This document shows positions 8,338 to 40,330 of a stretch of 64,000 nucleotides of DNA, in pieces (positions within the stretch are counted from its first letter, which is position 1; each line of letters starts with the position of its first letter). The notes beneath the pieces were generated by a model. The model was not told the origin of the DNA. It did no database searches and saw only the letters and a program-made list of their open reading frames with translations. The stretch is from Gammaproteobacteria bacterium (GTDB lineage Bacteria; Pseudomonadota; Gammaproteobacteria; Pseudomonadales; IMCC2047). The DNA is taken from the NCBI GenBank assembly GCA_021773395.1, contig JAJFKB010000020.1, positions 310,001 through 374,000 on the forward strand, read 5' to 3'. The position numbers and the translations under genes are program-made.

Positions 8338-9171
8338 TTAATTTAGAATATCACCTATTTTAATCATTTCACCGATACCTTCCTCCAATATCGAATTTTG
8401 ACCAAAATAGGCGCCCTGATAACCGGGCGCCGTATTCATTGACTTCAACGTTCTCAATGGTTCTCCCAACTCTTTATCCACCATGCCGGTTTTTTGGTCT
8501 GTTGTAATGACAATGCAACGTTCACTGGGATATTTCAGAGCCAATCGATATTTCCTGTCGGCATGCCGCAGCACCCTGTCCGAGTACTCTGAGAAAGCGG
8601 GCAGTCCATTGATTACAATATTAGGCCTGAATCGATTCATAGGCACCTGCTCAATATCACGCAAAGCCAATTCTTCATTCAAGACCTTTAAAGATGCATC
8701 ACTGGTGATTAGAAAGGGCGCAGCATCGGCAAAAGCCGTATGGGTATTTTCGCCGAGCAGATCCGGCTTTGATTGTGGGCGTGTTTGACGATCATCGATG
8801 CTTACCAGTCGCAATGGATAGTCTGAGGACAAAGCGCGAGTTAACCAAACTGAAGCCTCCTCGCCAGTATCCAGAGCAGAAAATTTATCCCGCCATACGC
8901 TCACATCAACGAGCGTACCCGAATCCTGGAGCAATGGTACTTTGAGTTCAGGCTGCCCGACAGCGGCCAACCTCAGGTATCCATCACTTAACTCAGCCGA
9001 CAACGTGGCTAACTGCGGCTTTTGCCGCTGCGTAACCATGCGTCCGTTAGGCATGACAATCATCCAGTTACGGTCGTAACGCAATCCTCTGCCTGTGAGT
9101 TCCGCGCTATTAACCGCGACCCCTCTCAATCCTTTGACCGGATAGAGGAACAATCCTGTGACTTCTATCAT
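8338..9171 (-). CDS. MOSC-domain protein, mARC/YcbX-like molybdenum enzyme without ferredoxin domain
   Basis: A 277-aa protein with an N-terminal MOSC beta-barrel domain (LYPVKGLRG near residues 11-19) and a C-terminal MOSC domain. The family's cofactor-ligating cysteine lies in SERCIVITTDQKTG (about residues 223-236), preceded by the typical RFRPNIVINGLPAF. In mARC and YcbX this cysteine binds molybdopterin for reduction of N-hydroxylated compounds. E. coli YcbX has an extra C-terminal 2Fe-2S domain that is absent here, so an external electron donor is expected. It lies downstream of the formate dehydrogenase/Moco gene run on the same strand, which fits a Moco user. Function by family only. 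Confidence 0.8.
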   Translation of the reverse strand: MIEVTGLFLYPVKGLRGVAVNSAELTGRGLRYDRNWMIVMPNGRMVTQRQKPQLATLSAELSDGYLRLAAVGQPELKVPLLQDSGTLVDVSVWRDKFSALDTGEEASVWLTRALSSDYPLRLVSIDDRQTRPQSKPDLLGENTHTAFADAAPFLITSDASLKVLNEELALRDIEQVPMNRFRPNIVINGLPAFSEYSDRVLRHADRKYRLALKYPSERCIVITTDQKTGMVDKELGEPLRTLKSMNTAPGYQGAYFGQNSILEEGIGEMIKIGDILN

Positions 9172-9255
9172 CTATCTTCTTCCTTACGATAATATGGGCT
9201 TTTACATCATCAGCTATGGTTGATTCTGGTCATCTAGAAACATGAACGCCTATGA

Positions 9256-9507
9256 TTAAATCGGTGTTTGATACTTGTCCTTCCATTCATCGTAAGGCAT
9301 GCCATAAATCAATTCGCGCGCAGTATCATAGTCCATCTCAACACCCTTCTCCTCGGCTGCCGCCATATACCACTTACTCAGACAGTTGCGACAAAATCCC
9401 GCCAAATTCATGAGCTCAATATTTTGTACATCTTTTCGCGAATCCAAATGCTGCAACAGGTGCCTGAATGCCGCTGCCTCCAGTTCTGTTCTGGTCTGTT
9501 TATCCAT
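9256..9507 (-). CDS. DUF1244 family protein
   Basis: An 83-aa protein of the DUF1244 family, recognised from FRHLLQHLDSR, NLAGFCRNCLSKW and the ending around YGMPYDEWK. The two cysteines in the CRNC motif are a plausible metal or redox site. The ATG at 9507 lies 6 nt after GAGGAG; an adjacent GTG at 9510 is also in frame but too close to it. It sits about 105 nt after moeA and about 85 nt before the MOSC gene on the same strand. Function unknown. Confidence 0.85.
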   Translation of the reverse strand: MDKQTRTELEAAAFRHLLQHLDSRKDVQNIELMNLAGFCRNCLSKWYMAAAEEKGVEMDYDTARELIYGMPYDEWKDKYQTPI

Positions 9508-9615
9508 CACTCTCTCCTCATATAATAAAAACCAATCAATAACGCACCATAATATTAGGCTTGGCTCTTTGTTTTTTGTCTCTTGTTATTTTGTATGCGT
9601 TACATTGCACATTAT

Positions 9616-10872
9616 CTAAAACCCAAATTGAGCAAAAGGCATAAATGCCACCCTGTCGCCTATTTCGACTTCGGTTAATTCATCGGGCAACTCCACTAAA
9701 CCATCAGCTTCAACCATCGAGGTCAACACGCCAGATCCCTGTTTAGGATGCTTATCTACGCTTACAGCCCCCTCGGCACCAGCAACTAACTGCGCCCTTA
9801 CCCATTCACGTCTCCCCGCTTTCTTTTTCATCTTAAAGGTAGCAGGCAAATCCAGATATTGTGGCTCTGGCCAACTTTGACCTGACAACGCCGCAAGCAG
9901 CGGGTAGGCAAAGCGCAAAAAACAAACAGCCGTGGCTACCGGATTCCCGGGGAAACCAATAAAATACTGATTATGCAACTTCCCAAATGCCAGAGGTCTG
10001 CCGGGCTTGATGGCCAGGCGCCAAAATCCCACCTCTCCACTCTCCCCTAAAATTTCGGCGATATGGTCCGCATCGCCTGTCGAGACGCCACCCGAAGTCA
10101 TAATCACCTGATGCTCCGCCGCCGCTTTTTCCAGCGATTGCGCTATACTTTTTTTATCATCCTTTAGTATCCCAAGATCTGTCGTTTCACAGCCCATGGT
10201 CTTTAACAGTGCCTGGAGCATGTAGCGGTTCACATCGTAAACGCCATCTTCGGAAAGAGACTCACCAGGTTCAAAAATTTCATCTCCTGTAGAAAAAACC
10301 GCAACTTTTAAAGGATGGAAAACCTTAACTTTGGGATAACCAAAAGCCGCAATCATCCCGATATCTGTGGGCGACAAACAATGTCCGGCGGTATAAAGCT
10401 GCTGATCCTTTGTGACATCTTCACCACGACAGCGATAATTAATTCCCTGCTTCAGATCCTCCGGCAGCAAAATATCCTCATCTACCAACGTCACATCCTC
10501 CTGCATCACTACGGTATCTGCACCTACCGGGATTTTTGCGCCGGTAAAGATACGTGCAGCTGTTCCTCTGGCTAGAGGCTGACCCATCATGCGGCCGGCT
10601 CGTATATATTGTGATACAGGCATAGGCTGACCCTTTGCAATGACATAATCGGCATATGCGAAGGCATAGCCATCGACCGCTGCATTATCAAAGCCAGGGA
10701 CATCCCTGGTGCTATGTAGATCTTCGGCGAGGATTCTTCCTGAGGCCAGCTCTATCGGCACCACTTCTGTTGAGCTTATTGCTCCTGCCGCCTTCTTTAG
10801 CTTGGCTATAGCTTCGGCGGTGGACATCAGGCGCTCTTTTTCATCAAAGCAGTCGTTAGATATTTTCGTCAT
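9616..10872 (-). CDS. moeA: Molybdopterin molybdenumtransferase
   Basis: A 418-aa enzyme that inserts molybdate (or tungstate) into adenylylated molybdopterin. It shows the domain order of MoeA: N-terminal domains I/II with DVPGFDNAAVDGYAFAY (about 59-75), the MPT-binding domain III with STGDE and TSGGVSTGDADH, GFPGNPVA, and the C-terminal beta domain IV. Length is normal. The ATG is preceded by AAGGAG at about 10 nt. It is the last gene of the formate dehydrogenase-mobA-permease-mobB-moeA run, 46 nt after mobB, so it probably supplies cofactor to this formate dehydrogenase. Confidence 0.96.
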   Translation of the reverse strand: MTKISNDCFDEKERLMSTAEAIAKLKKAAGAISSTEVVPIELASGRILAEDLHSTRDVPGFDNAAVDGYAFAYADYVIAKGQPMPVSQYIRAGRMMGQPLARGTAARIFTGAKIPVGADTVVMQEDVTLVDEDILLPEDLKQGINYRCRGEDVTKDQQLYTAGHCLSPTDIGMIAAFGYPKVKVFHPLKVAVFSTGDEIFEPGESLSEDGVYDVNRYMLQALLKTMGCETTDLGILKDDKKSIAQSLEKAAAEHQVIMTSGGVSTGDADHIAEILGESGEVGFWRLAIKPGRPLAFGKLHNQYFIGFPGNPVATAVCFLRFAYPLLAALSGQSWPEPQYLDLPATFKMKKKAGRREWVRAQLVAGAEGAVSVDKHPKQGSGVLTSMVEADGLVELPDELTEVEIGDRVAFMPFAQFGF

Positions 10873-10918
10873 AAAAAGATGACTCCTTTAGGTTTACGTG
10901 TTGCAGGCCTATTCCATA

Positions 10919-11431
10919 TTAATCTGCAAAGAAGTCCAAAATGAAATTGCCAATTTGCCGGGTATTATTGAGATCGAGAACAGGGCAGTCTCGGCCGTAG
11001 TCAGCCGAATTAATAGACTGATCTGAGGCAAAAGCGACAATACCGGGAATGTTCTCAGGCATTGGTTGATTTGATTTCGCTTCACTGGGCCTGATTACCT
11101 GAATTTTCGGATGGCCTTCAACCTTGTAGCCCTCGACCAGCACAATATCGACCTTGCCCAATTTGGCAAGCAGCTGCTCTAAGCCTGGCTCCGGTTCATC
11201 CAGGGTTTCATGAATCATCGCCCAACGAAGGTTGGAAACAACGATCACCTCCTGCGCACCCGCTTTACGATGTCTGTAGCTATCGGTACCCGGAACATCG
11301 ATATCGAAATCGTGATGGGCGTGTTTGATAGTCGCGACAGTTAGCCCCTGTGCGTCAAAATGTTCGACCAGTCTTACTACCAGGCCGGTTTTACCGGAAT
11401 TTTTCCAGCCTGTAATTCCAAATACATTCAT
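10919..11431 (-). CDS. mobB: Molybdopterin-guanine dinucleotide biosynthesis adaptor MobB
   Basis: A 170-aa GTP-binding protein with the P-loop GWKNSGKT near residues 8-15 and the conserved TIKHAHHDFDID segment and GTDSYRHRKAGA, all typical of MobB. It assists MobA in forming the guanine dinucleotide cofactor. It lies between the TupB-like permease gene (17 nt upstream) and moeA. A stand-alone mobB rather than a moeA-mobB fusion. Confidence 0.95.
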   Translation of the reverse strand: MNVFGITGWKNSGKTGLVVRLVEHFDAQGLTVATIKHAHHDFDIDVPGTDSYRHRKAGAQEVIVVSNLRWAMIHETLDEPEPGLEQLLAKLGKVDIVLVEGYKVEGHPKIQVIRPSEAKSNQPMPENIPGIVAFASDQSINSADYGRDCPVLDLNNTRQIGNFILDFFAD

Positions 11432-11448
11432 TGGCTACTTCCCAGACA

Positions 11449-12132
11449 TCAACTATTGAAAGTGTTTTTATGAGGCATATCGAGATACTTAAGCGAAAGC
11501 AGAGTGGCCGCACCAAGAAGCAGCACCAAACCGAGCTGTAACGTTGCCGGTCCGGCCCCCTGCATGACTTGAGGGCGCAACAGGTAGTCCAGCATTGTGC
11601 AAAGCAAAGCTAGCCCTCCCAACTCAGCAACTATCCGTCCGTAAGTAATCACCGCCAAATGAAGTAACTGTAGACGTGCCCTCCAAAACAGAGTGGGTAG
11701 CGCTTGCTGGGCATTCATACGCCAAAATCGAAGCTGAGGCTTAAACTGTTTCCATTCAACCTCAATAATCTTTTGTGTACCGATAGCCGCTGAGGGCATT
11801 ACAAAGATCATCTGAAAGGTTATGAGAAACACGGGTGTCTCCAGCAAACCAGTTACGCCTTGAGGATTACTGTGACAAAGCGCCAGGTAAACCAATAAGC
11901 CAACAGGAATCAACACCGTACCAGCAATTCGCTGTAAATAATCAAGGATTCTTTGTTTGCCATCAAAACGCTTGACCGCCAGTACGCCGCCCAGAGAAAA
12001 CCCCAGCAATGCGGTGATCGCGAAAGATAACAAACTAATCATTATTGCCAGCTGCATAAGTGGCCCAAGTTTGGAATTTGTGGCAAAGCTTTCGAATAAA
12101 CTTGAAATAACCCCTGCCACACTGAGTTCCAT
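11449..12132 (-). CDS. Orphan TupB-like ABC-type permease with a degenerate coupling motif
   Basis: A 227-aa membrane protein with about five hydrophobic segments (roughly 24-54, 68-86, 100-120, 153-184, 198-215). The layout and motifs such as ISLLSFAITALLGFSLGG and YGRIVAELGG resemble tungstate ABC permeases of the TupB type. The cytoplasmic EAA loop that should contact an ATPase is eroded: the usual glycine is replaced (FWRMNAQQALP). No substrate-binding protein (TupA) or ATPase (TupC) gene is nearby. Its start overlaps the mobA stop by one base (TGATG), so it is translationally coupled to mobA. A role in tungstate or molybdate entry, or in handing metal to MobA/MoeA, is inferred from context only. 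Confidence 0.65.
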   Translation of the reverse strand: MELSVAGVISSLFESFATNSKLGPLMQLAIMISLLSFAITALLGFSLGGVLAVKRFDGKQRILDYLQRIAGTVLIPVGLLVYLALCHSNPQGVTGLLETPVFLITFQMIFVMPSAAIGTQKIIEVEWKQFKPQLRFWRMNAQQALPTLFWRARLQLLHLAVITYGRIVAELGGLALLCTMLDYLLRPQVMQGAGPATLQLGLVLLLGAATLLSLKYLDMPHKNTFNS

Positions 12133-34848: not shown

Positions 34849-35487
34849 CTATAAAGGATCTACGCCCAATCTTGATTGCAACCGCCCCATGCTTCCATCT
34901 GGATCACAAATATCAAACCAGAAGCTCTGCATGCCCACCACTTCCGCGCCTTTGCAATTGGCATGCATATCATCGACAAACAAGCACTCCTGTGGCTGAC
35001 ATTGCAGCGCTTCAACACAGGCCAGATAGGGTTCAGGAGCAGGTTTTCTTACGCCGACTGATTTGACATCGACCACCTGCTCAAACAGATGTGCATGTGG
35101 CCAGGTTTCCCACCAACGCTCACCCAACCACGCTGTCGCATCATTGGTTAACAGTGCCTGCCGAAATCCCGAATCTCGAAGATGGCCAATCACCTGCCAG
35201 GTAAATCCTCGCTCCCCCGTTGAAAAATCCATATCCTGATAAGGATTGAAGGAGATTCCCTCTTTCTGCAAAGCATCAGTGATACATTGCAGATACTCGG
35301 GTTCACTGATCTCACCCTGATCCATTTTCGCATAAAAAGGATCATCCCCCGGCCCGGTTGGCCCAAGCGGTAATCGTTCTAACGGCCAGTTTCTCTCTTT
35401 TCCAATCTCAACCATCAGCTCAGTAAAGAAGCCGTACATTATTCCGCCCATATCCCAGATAATAATCCGGGGTATTGAATCACCCAT
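34849..35487 (-). CDS. HAD-superfamily hydrolase with DxG motif I
   Basis: A 212-aa HAD-fold protein. Motif I is WDMGGIM: the nucleophile Asp is present, but the second Asp used as general acid by HAD phosphatases is replaced by Gly. Motif II is LLTNDAT, motif III Lys is in VRKPAPEPY, and motif IV is LFVDDMH. HADs with DxG in motif I include non-phosphatase members, so phosphatase activity is doubtful. It overlaps the LysE-type gene by 8 nt and lies in the same run. Confidence 0.85.
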   Translation of the reverse strand: MGDSIPRIIIWDMGGIMYGFFTELMVEIGKERNWPLERLPLGPTGPGDDPFYAKMDQGEISEPEYLQCITDALQKEGISFNPYQDMDFSTGERGFTWQVIGHLRDSGFRQALLTNDATAWLGERWWETWPHAHLFEQVVDVKSVGVRKPAPEPYLACVEALQCQPQECLFVDDMHANCKGAEVVGMQSFWFDICDPDGSMGRLQSRLGVDPL

Positions 35488-36106
35488 TGTTATCTATCCT
35501 AAGTGTTAATAATCCTGCGGTCATCAGCGCAGTGCCTCCGCCAAAGCCAAACCACCGAGTCAAACGCGGCGACTGAAACAGTTTACCGCACTTTCCCGCA
35601 AGGTTGGTATAAATGAGCATATTGATCATGGCCAATAGAAGAAACGTAACTCCGAGAGCAGCAAACTGGGGGAAAAGCGGGTTATCAGGGTTAACAAATT
35701 GCGGCATAAACGCCGAGAAAAAGATAATACCCTTCGGGTTTAACGCTGTGATGGTGAAAGCACGCCTGGTCAACAGTAACGCGTTAAACGCTTGCAGAGG
35801 CTGGTTCATGTTTTGAATCTGCACGCCCGAGCGGAACATGGTAATTCCCAGGTAAAGCAGGTAACCCGCCCCGGCCAACTTAATCCAGCCAAACAATACT
35901 GACGATGTCGCCAGCAACGCGCCCAAACCAAGCAGAGAACACAGGATACAGATAGCATCCCCACAAACCACACCCGACATCAGCGGCAACACCGCTTTTC
36001 TGCCATGAAACACCGACTGACCCACGGCATAAATAACTGTTGGGCCGGGGATAATCAGTATTAGCATGGCGGCAAAAACAAAGGCAACCCAAAGTTGAAT
36101 GGTCAA
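35480..36106 (-). CDS. LysE/RhtB family amino-acid exporter
   Basis: A 208-aa inner-membrane protein with about six helices. The conserved PGPTVIYAVGQSVFHGRKAV region near residues 21-40 and ALNPKGIIFFSAFMPQFV in the middle are typical of the LysE superfamily, which exports amino acids or related compounds. The start codon is TTG, supported by GGGAG about 7 nt upstream; a stop codon lies directly upstream. It overlaps the HAD gene by 8 nt. Confidence 0.92.
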   Translation of the reverse strand: MTIQLWVAFVFAAMLILIIPGPTVIYAVGQSVFHGRKAVLPLMSGVVCGDAICILCSLLGLGALLATSSVLFGWIKLAGAGYLLYLGITMFRSGVQIQNMNQPLQAFNALLLTRRAFTITALNPKGIIFFSAFMPQFVNPDNPLFPQFAALGVTFLLLAMINMLIYTNLAGKCGKLFQSPRLTRWFGFGGGTALMTAGLLTLRIDNNG

Positions 36107-36188: not shown

Positions 36189-37121
36189 CTAGGGTTTTAT
36201 ATGCTCAACAACCACAAAGTTCTGGGCAACTTCACTCCACTCAACGATCACTGACTCTCCCGGTGCCGGAAAGTCGTCCAATTCAAAAGTGCCTTCATAG
36301 CCTTTGGAGTAGGCTTCACCCAGGCCAGTGACCGTAAATGACACCTCATCAATCTTTTTGCCATCAACGAAGGTTTTCAGGGTGTGGTCACCCTCGCCTA
36401 ACAGTCCCCAGGCGATCACCATGCCATAACCATTATTAGCGTCACCGCAAATAGCGCGGGTATCCTCTCTGGAAGTACCGTAGGCTATGTTAATCAGCTC
36501 GCCATCATCAAACGAGATATCGACCCGATACGCGTGACAGGCCCATCCTCTGATAACGCCTACACCACTTTCCGTTGAACCCTCGAAGGGAACCTCCTGA
36601 ACCGCCTGGTCAGGAAGGATAAGATCCTCATTTTCAGGAAATGGAAAAATTGGTACAGAACCTATAAAACCATCCAATTCAAAAAGCGGTTCAGCTTCAT
36701 CATAGAGAGCCATATATTTGTTGGGGTGATCAAATTTGGAAAATGCGGCCGACAAATCGACTGCCAAATTAAGATTCCCACTCGGCGCAGGGCAAGGATC
36801 CACGTCAACTCTTTTAATGTCCATGGAAATAGAAATATTTTCGTCAAAAAACTTTATTCTATTGACCGCTATATCTGAAATACAGCCATCGTTTATATTA
36901 AAGGGAAGGGAAAAATCCCGCTTCGAAATAAACAGTTCTTCGGTGACCGGCCCAATTGTAAAACCATCACCCTCAATGGTATCAGGTAAGGCCTCTTCGG
37001 CTGGCAAACTAGAGGAAGTCCCTAAAAATAGAAGCAGTAGAGTAACCGTTAAAAAGTGCTTCATAGTCCGATTAAAGCCATATCGGTTAACACTTTGAGA
37101 TTGCCCGTGAATCATGTCCAT
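36189..37121 (-). CDS. Secreted protein with two-Cys domain and shared GWACxA C-terminal domain, no LRR
   Basis: A 310-aa protein. AAGGA lies about 7 nt before the ATG at 37121, so a long signal peptide is likely (n-region about 1-22, hydrophobic core about 23-37); an internal ATG at 37064 is also possible. Residues about 70-150 contain a Cys-x(about 30)-Cys beta-rich segment similar to the middle of the two LRR proteins upstream. The C-terminal 125 residues share the domain marked by IRGWACHA, YGTSREDTRAICGD, NNGYGMVIAWGLLG and a final EWSE. It is the third gene of a three-paralogue run, 67 nt after the preceding gene. No function can be assigned; secretion is inferred from the signal peptide. 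Confidence 0.75.
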   Translation of the reverse strand: MDMIHGQSQSVNRYGFNRTMKHFLTVTLLLLFLGTSSSLPAEEALPDTIEGDGFTIGPVTEELFISKRDFSLPFNINDGCISDIAVNRIKFFDENISISMDIKRVDVDPCPAPSGNLNLAVDLSAAFSKFDHPNKYMALYDEAEPLFELDGFIGSVPIFPFPENEDLILPDQAVQEVPFEGSTESGVGVIRGWACHAYRVDISFDDGELINIAYGTSREDTRAICGDANNGYGMVIAWGLLGEGDHTLKTFVDGKKIDEVSFTVTGLGEAYSKGYEGTFELDDFPAPGESVIVEWSEVAQNFVVVEHIKP

Positions 37122-37188
37122 TTTGTAGTCCTTAAATCTATTTCCTTAATTAAAATAATGTACTAATAATTCTAAAAGAGCCCCAACT

Positions 37189-38535
37189 TCAGGGGCTACG
37201 GTAATGAATGCGAAACCCCTGGTGGGCCTCACTCCAACCGATGTTTACGCTATCGCCGGAAATCGGAAAATCATACAGGCGATAGCTGCGTGTCGGCAGG
37301 TCCTTGGCAAACGCCTGATCCAGTCCCACCACCTCAAAATCGACATCTGCAATCTCCACATCATCAATAAAGGTCTGTAACCGGTGAGAGCCCTTCCCTA
37401 GCAGCCCCCAGGCAAATACCATCCCGTAGCCATTGTCCGCATCACCGCAGATTGCGCGTGTATCCTCCCTTGAGGTGCCATAGGCCACAGGAATACGGGA
37501 ACCTCCGTCAATCGCAATCTCCACCTTGCGCGCATCACAGGCCCAGCCTCGAATTATCCCAATACCGCTTTCTTTGGAGCCCATAGAGGGTGTTTCCTGC
37601 ATGCTTGTGGTGAGCTCACCCAAATTTGGGTTTGCTACATTTACTAATAAATAAGCTATCAAACGTGACTCAAAAGATGGGTAATATTTAATGTAAAGGT
37701 CAATTCGATAGTCACCGGGTGACGTCAGCAAACCTAAATCAATGTTTCCATCTGTAGGCCAGCAAGGAACACCAAAGGTGTCCTGACCAACCACTTTCAA
37801 CGTAATGGATATCACCTTTTTCGCATAATTGATATCAACCTCGTCAAAGGAATTTCTATAACAATAAAATGCGTTGTTGAAGTTTAAAGACAATGCCTTT
37901 TTGGTGCTGGCTATTGGCCATGGGCTAAGGACTAACGCATCACCCCACAATGGCACAGGAGGACTATTTTCCGTCAGCAAAAAACTTTTCTCATCAAGCA
38001 AGTTGTTGGAGACATCTAAAAATTCAAGATAGGGTAATTCTTTAACACTTTGAGGAATTAGACCCGTTAACTGGTTATTATTTAGGAGTAATTTATAGAG
38101 TTTTTTAAGGTTTCCAAGACTGGAAGGAATGTCTCCTGTTAGTTGGTTGTCAGATAACTCAAGATCTTCCAGCTCCTTTAAATTGCCAATAGTTTCAGGA
38201 ATTACACCTGTTAGCCCGCTTTTGTTAATATGCAATCTTCTAAGATGGCTTAAATTACCAATACTTTCTGGAATCTGCCCAATCGTATATTCACTTTCAA
38301 GCACAATAGATTCTATATGAGCAAATTTGCATGTCAGCCGTGGATCGTTACAAATAGGCTCTCCCTCAACACCAAAACCTGCACCTAAATCTTGTAATAC
38401 CTGGCATTCCGTTTGATTGATGACAGAGACATGATTGCAATCCAGCTCAGCTTGAGAAAATGGCGCATAGAGTAGCGCTAACATCCATAGAACGGATGCC
38501 GAAATGAGTTGTTCCTTTTGCTTAAATAGTTTCAT
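37189..38535 (-). CDS. Secreted plant-type LRR protein with shared GWACxA C-terminal domain (short form)
   Basis: A 448-aa protein started at the ATG at 38535, 13 nt after the upstream paralogue's stop; an upstream in-frame start at 38592 would overlap that gene and spoil the signal peptide. Signal peptide about 1-28 (ending PFSQA), a Cys-rich N-cap (ELDCN, QTEC), four or so 24-residue leucine-rich repeats (about 95-182, IPESIGNL / LSDNQLTGDIP pattern), a two-Cys beta-rich domain (about 215-300), and the GWACDA domain (312-448). The C-terminal 137 residues differ from the upstream paralogue at about 14 positions by eye. Function unknown; probably extracellular binding. Confidence 0.8.
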   Translation of the reverse strand: MKLFKQKEQLISASVLWMLALLYAPFSQAELDCNHVSVINQTECQVLQDLGAGFGVEGEPICNDPRLTCKFAHIESIVLESEYTIGQIPESIGNLSHLRRLHINKSGLTGVIPETIGNLKELEDLELSDNQLTGDIPSSLGNLKKLYKLLLNNNQLTGLIPQSVKELPYLEFLDVSNNLLDEKSFLLTENSPPVPLWGDALVLSPWPIASTKKALSLNFNNAFYCYRNSFDEVDINYAKKVISITLKVVGQDTFGVPCWPTDGNIDLGLLTSPGDYRIDLYIKYYPSFESRLIAYLLVNVANPNLGELTTSMQETPSMGSKESGIGIIRGWACDARKVEIAIDGGSRIPVAYGTSREDTRAICGDADNGYGMVFAWGLLGKGSHRLQTFIDDVEIADVDFEVVGLDQAFAKDLPTRSYRLYDFPISGDSVNIGWSEAHQGFRIHYRSP

Positions 38536-38548
38536 CTTTTGTAATCCG

Positions 38549-40330
38549 TTACGGGCTATGATAATGAATTCGAAAACCCTGGTGCGCCTCACTCCAACCG
38601 ATATTCACGCTCTCCCCTGCGTTGGGGAAATCAAACAGGCGATAACTGCGTGTCGGCAGGTCTTTGGCAAAGGCCTGATCCAGCCCCACCACTTCAAAAT
38701 CGATATCTTCGATCTCTACATTATCCACAAAGGTCTGTAAGCGGTGGATGCCCTTGCCAAGCAGCCCCCAGGCAAACACCATCCCATAACCGTTATCCGC
38801 ATCACCACAGACTGAGCGTGTATCCTCACGGGAGGTGCCATAAGCCACGGGAATACGGGAGCCACCGTCAATTGCAATCTCCACCTTATACGCATCGCAG
38901 GCCCAGCCCCGGATAATGCCAATGCCGCTTTCTTTAGAACCCATAGAGGGTGTTTCCTGCATGGCGGGGGTATCGCTAATGGTGCCCGGGTCCGGGTCAT
39001 TGGTAATTAAATCATTCACAGAGAAATAGCCAATTAAACCCGGTTCATACGCTACCGAAGCAAAATCTAGATATAAATCATTTCTTAGTTGATAAATCTC
39101 CACAAAATACTCTTCGGCATCGGGCAAAACTCCGATATCAAGCTCTAGACCTGTTGCCTGTGGACAGGTTGGGAAATCGATACCCCAGGGGTGCGACAGC
39201 AGAGTGATCATTATTTTTCTGTTTTTATAGTCAATATCAACTTCTTCTATTCCAAAAGAGGATGCGCAAAACTGAGCTACTAAATTAAGTCCAATACGAA
39301 ATGGCTTTGAACTGCCAATTTCAGGAAATGGGTCGATAATGACTTCATTACCCCAAATTCCAAACTGAGGGTTTTCTTTAGTCACTAGAAAGTTGGATTT
39401 ATCCAACAAATTGTGGGAGAAATCCACTTCAACCTTTGGAGACAGTTTTTTTACAGCATCAGGAATAAGCCCCGTCAATTGATTGTTATTAAGCAATAGA
39501 GCTTCTAACCGCGTCATATTACCGAACTCTGGCGGAATAGATCCGGATAGTTGATTGTAGCTGAGATCCAATACCGCCAAGCTATTTAAATTACTGAGGC
39601 TAGCGGGTAAAGAGCCTGTTAATTGATTATCGGTGAGCCAGAGAAAGTCCAATGCGTCGAGATTGCCAATGCTACTGGGTATTGGGCCACTTAACCGGTT
39701 TTGATAGATAAAAAGGTAGATTAAATTTGTCAGATTCCCGATGCTCGAAGGGATCTGGCCAGTTAGCTTATTATTATTTAGATAGAGGGTTTCCAAATCG
39801 GATAGGTTGCCAATGCTTTCAGGTATTGGGTCGCTTAATTGATTGTGATCCAGCTCCAGCACTCTTAAATTGACGAGACTTCCTATGCTATCGGGAATAC
39901 TCCCTGACAATTGGTTGTTCGACAAATCCAATGTGGTCAAATCTACCAGGTTCCCAATATTCTCCGGAATTTGCGTCAAACCGCTGCTGGTTATTCTTAA
40001 AGCTCTTAAGTGCGTAAGATTTGAAATTGTTTCGTACAGCTGAGCCGAATGAAATCCACCAGAAAACTGAACACCTACCACTTGATCAGCTTCACAAAAT
40101 ACTTGAGAGGTATCGCAAACAGTTGTCCTGTCGCTACTCCATAACTCTTGCCCGTATGCCAATTCCAGATCCCCCAATGCCCGGCATTCTGAATAAGAGA
40201 TATCCGTAATTTTGTTGCAGTCCAGCTCAGCTTGAGAAAATGGCGCATAGAACAGGGCCAGCAGAATAAATAAAACAAACACGAAACGAAAAATTGGAGG
40301 GGGCTTTTGCGATTCCCTGAATTTATCCAT
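38549..40330 (-). CDS. Secreted plant-type LRR protein with shared GWACxA C-terminal domain (long form)
   Basis: A 593-aa protein. Signal peptide about 1-34 (hydrophobic VFVLFILLALFYA, ending PFSQA), Cys-containing N-cap (DCN, SEC), about nine 24-residue LRRs (104-310; consensus LxxLxLxxNxLSGxIPxSIGN), a two-Cys domain (about 320-450) and the GWACDA domain (457-593). The repeat consensus is the extracellular plant-type LRR, usually a ligand- or protein-binding solenoid. First gene of three paralogues on the minus strand. No transmembrane anchor, sortase or PEP-CTERM signal is seen at the C-terminus, which ends HYHSP. Confidence 0.8.
   Translation of the reverse strand: MDKFRESQKPPPIFRFVFVLFILLALFYAPFSQAELDCNKITDISYSECRALGDLELAYGQELWSSDRTTVCDTSQVFCEADQVVGVQFSGGFHSAQLYETISNLTHLRALRITSSGLTQIPENIGNLVDLTTLDLSNNQLSGSIPDSIGSLVNLRVLELDHNQLSDPIPESIGNLSDLETLYLNNNKLTGQIPSSIGNLTNLIYLFIYQNRLSGPIPSSIGNLDALDFLWLTDNQLTGSLPASLSNLNSLAVLDLSYNQLSGSIPPEFGNMTRLEALLLNNNQLTGLIPDAVKKLSPKVEVDFSHNLLDKSNFLVTKENPQFGIWGNEVIIDPFPEIGSSKPFRIGLNLVAQFCASSFGIEEVDIDYKNRKIMITLLSHPWGIDFPTCPQATGLELDIGVLPDAEEYFVEIYQLRNDLYLDFASVAYEPGLIGYFSVNDLITNDPDPGTISDTPAMQETPSMGSKESGIGIIRGWACDAYKVEIAIDGGSRIPVAYGTSREDTRSVCGDADNGYGMVFAWGLLGKGIHRLQTFVDNVEIEDIDFEVVGLDQAFAKDLPTRSYRLFDFPNAGESVNIGWSEAHQGFRIHYHSP
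39400..40022 (-). repeat. 72-bp-period coding repeat (LRR solenoid)
   Basis: The DNA shows a clear 72-bp period, with words such as TTGCCAATGCT and GTTAATTGATTATT recurring at that spacing. It corresponds to successive 24-residue leucine-rich repeats in the long LRR protein, so it is protein repeat structure and not a non-coding array. Confidence 0.8.

Follow-up and report, generated by a model that had tools for sequence, protein, structure and literature searches.

Three adjacent genes and their modules

The window analysed here is a stretch of 64,000 nucleotides (C12:310001-374000) from the 3.80-Mb, 26-contig genome (G000) of a gammaproteobacterium, and our subject is a cluster of three adjacent minus-strand genes within it. 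P0001 (310 amino acids, aa; 36189..37121), P0002 (448 aa; 37189..38535) and P0003 (593 aa; 38549..40330) are separated by gaps of 67 and 13 nt, as the original prediction described, and contain the motifs it quoted, IRGWAC, YGTSRED and GDAxNGYG. The 448 aa of P0002 are counted from an ATG; counted from an alternative GTG, 57 nt further upstream, the protein would have 467 aa. P0001 is composed of a putative signal peptide, a two-cysteine (two-Cys)-containing region and a C-terminal immunoglobulin (Ig)-like domain, without leucine-rich repeats (LRRs). In P0002 and P0003 a putative signal peptide is followed by an N-cap with four cysteines, a plant-type LRR solenoid (short in P0002, long in P0003), a two-Cys domain and the Ig-like domain.

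The C-terminal domain of about 130 aa is common to all three proteins far above chance, with E = 2.3e-49 and 3.5e-49 for the two comparisons that involve P0001, and P0002 and P0003 are identical at 124 of 139 residues. On the minus strand it occupies 36192..36593 in P0001, from sequence comparison and predicted structure, and 37192..37593 and 38552..38953 in P0002 and P0003, from sequence comparison. It had been put forward as an unnamed domain, and no Pfam or NCBIfam model exceeds its cut-off over it. The window copies also fall short of the gathering threshold of Big_7 (PF17957): P0001 matches no family at E<=1, no Big_7 is listed for P0002 or P0003, and four of 32 domain members match it at E<=1. 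However, a divergent homologue (L058), to which our domain profile A6 aligns at 98.6% over 131 columns, passes the Pfam Big_7 cut-off (26.3 versus 24.1 bits), with other homologues just below it (23.9 and 23.3 bits), and the predicted fold is an Ig-like beta-sandwich (predicted local distance difference test, pLDDT, ~91). The claim that the domain is unnamed thus has to be abandoned. Judged from sequence and predicted fold, it is an uncatalogued Big_7-related subfamily and no orphan, and therefore no new fold. Like Big_7, it has an Ig-like fold, a GWA...G..R.D core and a setting in modular, mostly signal-peptide-bearing proteins; unlike Big_7, the window family has a conserved Cys pair, expected to be Cys195-Cys225 in P0001, and an extension at the C-terminus that is conserved as well (FP...W.E..QNF). 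Sequence searches of solved structures returned nothing for P0001 or for the 32-row domain profile. No account of the domain or the cluster turned up in open-licence PMC papers, and the available portions of PMC8877628, with Big_7 in one table row, and PMC2244805 hold nothing decisive on the domain.

All three proteins begin with a hydrophobic stretch that fits the predicted signal peptide, at aa 20-41 in P0001 (36999..37064), 1-29 in P0002 (38449..38535) and 1-34 in P0003 (40229..40330), all on the minus strand, with cleavage sites and the P0001 start placed by eye. P0001 perhaps starts at the internal Met20, yet the upstream ATG has, by eye, the better ribosome-binding site. Beyond residue 50 the mean Kyte-Doolittle value of a 19-residue segment peaks at 0.89-1.07, and none of the three contains a second strongly hydrophobic stretch. 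Because of the signal-peptide-like starts, the even cysteine numbers (4, 8 and 8 in P0001, P0002 and P0003) and the conserved Cys pair, export of the three proteins is supported, and a type II secretin that scores over its cut-off in the same genome would be a possible way out of the cell.

The predicted plant-type LRRs of different length are likewise present in P0002 and P0003, and none were found in P0001. The P0002 region (37981..38316, minus strand) holds four strict 24-aa repeats and one degenerate by eye (Pfam LRR_8, E=1.8e-15), and that of P0003 (39395..40078, minus strand) eight strict repeats and one degenerate by eye (LRR_14, E=1.9e-29; LRR_1 in seven stretches). Plant-type (PS) LRRs have the consensus LxxLxLxxNxLxGxIPxxLGxL, and the cluster repeats follow it. 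Among the best 60 of 223 matches of the P0003 LRR to solved chains, the top-scoring ones are plant receptor-kinase ectodomains. The variable positions of the fifth and sixth strict repeats of P0003 are aromatic-rich (LIYLFIYQN, LDFLWLTDN) and resemble a possible ligand face. PHROGs matches of P0002 and P0003 fall on the LRR region, and P0001 has none. Elsewhere in the same genome a 690-aa exported-looking LRR protein (L049:3300-5372; G000:C17:123299-125371) resembles P0002 and P0003 in its cysteine N-cap and in having plant-type LRRs; its C-terminal region is different and lacks the Ig-like domain.

A rare domain on many carriers

Five copies of the Ig-like domain were found in the genome itself: the three of the cluster, L004 (205 aa, signal peptide plus domain) and L005, a matrixin-type protease. 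Counting this genome each time, matches were obtained in 1 of 96 relatives (P0001 as query), 5 of 369 genomes of the class, one of them spurious, 7 of 391 of the order, where full-length strong copies are confined to this genome and G541, and 1 of 398 of the phylum. The spurious match (G165, E=8.3e-4) was so judged because the frame reads, by eye, like a DinG-type helicase. A scan of contig collections with two short peptide patterns, which misses divergent copies, gave 55 fitting stretches, 23 of them encoding a relative, at 22 loci: 13 in Candidatus (Ca.) Binatia/Binatota, two in 'Desulfurellaceae bin18', one in 'Deltaproteobacteria' and six in Gammaproteobacteria or Proteobacteria; at three of these (L025-L027) the match spans just 22-26 residues. 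Given the counts in the whole-genome samples, the domain is rare and patchy, occurring in Ca. Binatia and some Gammaproteobacteria. Searches of plasmids and phages with the L004 copy found no relatives at E<=1e-3, and in viral contigs none of ten pattern matches proved to be one with profile A6.

Among 34 proteins of the retrieved loci, counted without fragments, duplicate loci or the truncated L029, the domain is C-terminal in 19, N-terminal only in at least eight and internal in seven, some of which may be N-terminal, positions being taken from stop-to-stop frames; 12 of the 34 carry two copies. Its partners include a trypsin-like peptidase, DUF5122 and PD40 propellers, BACON, InhA-like MAM, Lcl_C, Cache, PhoPQ_related, a beta-lactamase fold and RCC1 repeats and, for divergent copies, BspA-type LRRs and a cupredoxin. 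The varied positions and partners speak for a portable module, probably extracellular, and against a C-terminal sorting signal.

Several of these carriers deserve mention. In G565, of another family of the same order, two BspA-type LRR proteins (L064:1354-2538 and L066:715-1950) end in a divergent copy, so that a second LRR class is joined to the domain, and in L058 of the same genome it is joined to a plastocyanin-like domain. Adjacent paralogues of Ca. Binatia (L019:6916-8547 and 8531-10066), another tandem set built on the module, carry it near the N-terminus, followed by a beta-lactamase/serine-hydrolase fold (a Pfam match for the first paralogue, sequence likeness for the second). Divergent partial profile matches near the C-terminus of long hydrophobic proteins that by eye are glycosyltransferase-like membrane proteins (L060, L061 and L062, from G501, G751 and G735) suggest that membrane proteins, too, can have a tail from the Ig-like superfamily.

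The two-Cys region and the history of the locus

A two-Cys domain before the Ig-like domain had been predicted for all three proteins. This holds for P0002 (Cys225 and Cys258; 37630..37950) and P0003 (Cys355 and Cys389; 39008..39358), both on the minus strand, which match each other at E=1e-10 with BLASTP of the region alone and exceed all 2000 shuffles in a leave-one-out hidden Markov model test. It is not established for the region taken alone in P0001 (Cys80 and Cys110; 36639..36974, minus strand), where BLASTP gives E=0.003 against P0002 and 4.1 against P0003, 113 of 2000 shuffles reach at least its score, and the predicted model has a pLDDT of about 60 or less. In favour of a shared domain, whole-protein alignments do not stop at the C-terminal domain of P0001 but continue into its two-Cys region, reaching back to residue 68 against P0003 and 33 against P0002. 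L009 (UBA652, 276 aa), L011 (Halieaceae BB37) and L057 (G541) likewise have a region with two cysteines immediately ahead of the domain; in the leave-one-out test L011 beats all 2000 shuffles and L057 all but 14, and the two match each other at E=8e-4 in BLASTP. A wider two-Cys family was considered and rejected on sparse profile matches and low hhalign values: profile A5 finds the three window copies and no others in its own genome, profile A7, which includes the G109 copy, matches three of 321 class genomes (this one, G109 and G174, the last too weak at E=0.0096), and hhalign of A5 gives 4.1% against L057 and 1.1% against L052.

The branching pattern of the Ig-like domains provides further clues. 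In a first tree of 47 rows, a 98/99 branch united six scaffold-linked domains with the long-branch L005. The six-domain group, named after this tree, was then tested in a second one of 46 rows without L005, in which a 100/99 branch separates the three window copies, L009, L011 and L057 from the other rows; it was recovered in 100% of 200 bootstrap trees. Six of the seven two-Cys-linked copies, from four genomes, are thus placed together, with fronts that have no solenoid, LRRs or a probable beta-helix. The last applies to L011, whose region before the scaffold reads like a beta-helix, as does an 815-aa open reading frame (ORF) that adjoins the 328-aa scaffold-like ORF of G109 (L035), both without a Pfam match. 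In G541 about 2.6 kb separate the two-Cys and Ig-like gene, beside housekeeping genes, from an ORF resembling by eye a phage-type integrase (L102:6750-7646 and 10259-11500).

The cluster lies beside the gene of NAD-glutamate dehydrogenase (GDH). In a second genome of the genus (G001) a HAD gene follows about 0.56 kb downstream of GDH, and tblastn of the 11.5-kb stretch detects neither P0001-P0003 nor LysE. PyrD, named by eye, follows 0.3-1.1 kb after GDH in G002, G003, G014 and G012, and tblastn finds none of the three cluster proteins in these stretches. Gain here rather than loss elsewhere is favoured, not proven, with G001 (83% complete) as the one other genome of the genus in the search. 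G+C at third codon positions (GC3) in the three genes lies 1.5-2.6 standard deviations below the mean of 27 other long window ORFs. No direct evidence of a mobile-element origin came from plasmids, phages or viral contigs, and that origin was set aside. Between the cluster and HAD lies a LysE-type exporter gene (35480-36106) whose GC3 deviates upward (z 2.4), opposite to the three genes; it may share the cluster's insertion, because it is also missing from the G001 stretch.

P0002 and P0003 would represent tandem duplicates whose fronts diverged and whose Ig module was kept. The proportion of nonsynonymous differences between them is 0.06 in the C-terminal domain, against 0.42 for the two-Cys region and again 0.42 for the N-cap plus LRR start. 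That of synonymous differences (pS) is 0.49 (0.39-0.60) against 0.68 (0.55-0.81) and 0.69 (0.54-0.85), with overlapping intervals. Between these two genes the Ig module is strongly constrained and the front parts have diverged. Third positions show a jump at the C-terminal domain (91/139 versus 82/188, Fisher p=1.3e-4), and fourfold sites at conserved residues match at 33 of 59 there versus 10 of 20 elsewhere. Gene conversion of the domain between the two genes is possible; as a reading of the jump it was not retained, since amino-acid identity confounds it and the pS intervals overlap, and the jump is put down to constraint.

Proposed function and likeness to known systems

We propose, with a probability of roughly 60%, that the cluster encodes internalin-like exported binding proteins in which the Ig scaffold is conserved and the solenoids vary. 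The three multidomain proteins would be exported, stabilised by disulphides and perhaps retained at the surface. Their Ig-like and two-Cys modules would serve as stalk or scaffold, to carry, display or dock the front part fused to them, P0001 being a scaffold without solenoid. The LRR solenoids of P0002 and P0003, of unequal length, would bind an extracellular ligand, either protein or glycan, as in the recognition set originally suggested, and the cluster was probably gained as a block in this lineage.

A number of results weigh against this proposal. Homology of the P0001 two-Cys region is not proven, and the two-Cys part of L009 fails the leave-one-out test (473/2000 shuffles). The seventh scaffold-like protein, L035 of G109, groups elsewhere in the 47-row tree, with its own neighbour L031. 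The predicted common scaffold with variable front modules is supported by similar layouts that recur without a solenoid (L009, L057) or with a probable beta-helix (L011). The five neighbours scanned (POT transporter, GST, HAD, LysE and GDH) give no functional link to the cluster. Its promoter- and terminator-like sites do not exceed the level of shuffles and so lend no support to an operon. Moreover, Ig-like linker domains may be mere spacers, according to the part of PMC3966859 available. A defence function was dropped, as a PADLOC scan for anti-phage families at E<=0.01 found none in any of the three proteins.

A serious rival, if a somewhat unlikely one, assigns the binding to the Ig-like domain, which might for instance be a carbohydrate or cell-wall module anchoring exported enzymes and solenoids to a polymer; the LRR would then be secondary. 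The domain is found on various hydrolases, proteases and solenoids, twice in 12 of the 34 proteins, and shows the strongest constraint among the three P0002 and P0003 parts compared; Big_7 is also listed among carbohydrate-binding domains of chitinases in the accessible text of PMC8950537. However, neither alignments nor fold matches indicate a ligand site in it, and its carriers have no obvious common substrate. An accessory role is a live rival as well, albeit a quite improbable one: the Ig-like and two-Cys modules would be inert spacers and the exported LRR proteins PGIP-like enzyme inhibitors, not receptors or adhesins. The plant extracellular LRRs among the top-scoring structures agree with it, as does the M12-type metalloprotease gene of UBA652 (L009:4178-6402), 2 nt downstream of which a two-Cys and Ig-like gene starts, possibly on one transcript; PMC3966859 (in part) calls the Ig-like domain of a T. 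petrophila mannanase a spacer or a domain of unknown function. Against it, the five window neighbours include no protease or cell-wall enzyme, and strong constraint is unexpected for a mere spacer. Finally, a sorting signal akin to the type IX C-terminal domain, which is obligatorily C-terminal, would suit the extreme C-terminal position in the window proteins and 19 of the 34 carriers, and is disfavoured, as highly improbable, by the N-terminal and internal copies.

Going beyond internalin-like binding proteins, the two-Cys and Ig-like pair might be a mobile extracellular display scaffold with interchangeable solenoids (plant-type LRRs of unequal length, beta-helices), a diversifying recognition set, which we consider rather unlikely. 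If so, the scaffold would be frozen, the binding parts free to vary, and gain and loss would occur at chromosomal sites between close species. Should the LRR fronts indeed bind ligands, the cluster would offer a compact natural set (no LRR, four and eight repeats on one scaffold) in which to study how specificity arises in bacterial extracellular LRR proteins. The analysis also delimits a recurrent Ig-like subfamily that the present models of Pfam and NCBIfam overlook; it is a module of proteases, propellers and solenoids in several lineages, most of them uncultured.

With plant LRR receptor kinases and receptor-like proteins (GSO1 and FLS2 ectodomains) the cluster shares the LRR type, LxxLxLxxNxLxGxIPxxIGNL; in contrast to them, it has no kinase domain or second strongly hydrophobic segment and carries bacterial two-Cys and Ig-like modules. 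The BspA-type proteins of G565 also combine an LRR solenoid with the same C-terminal domain superfamily, but their repeats are of the LRR_5 class, the divergent Ig copy lacks the Cys pair and no two-Cys module was seen. Internalin LRRs comprise 22 residues, and the cluster lacks their combination with an LRR_adjacent Ig region and an internalin cap; NCBIfam internalin_A scores 17.5 bits on it against a cut-off of 1600. Internalins are exported proteins with a cap, LRRs, an Ig-like region and further modules, and bind ligand through the LRR concave face (PMC8900821, in the part available). While the cluster differs from the InlB type of Listeria in its 24-aa plant-type repeats, which neither LRR_adjacent nor any other Pfam domain follows, the plan of cap, LRR, Ig-like region and further beta modules is the same.
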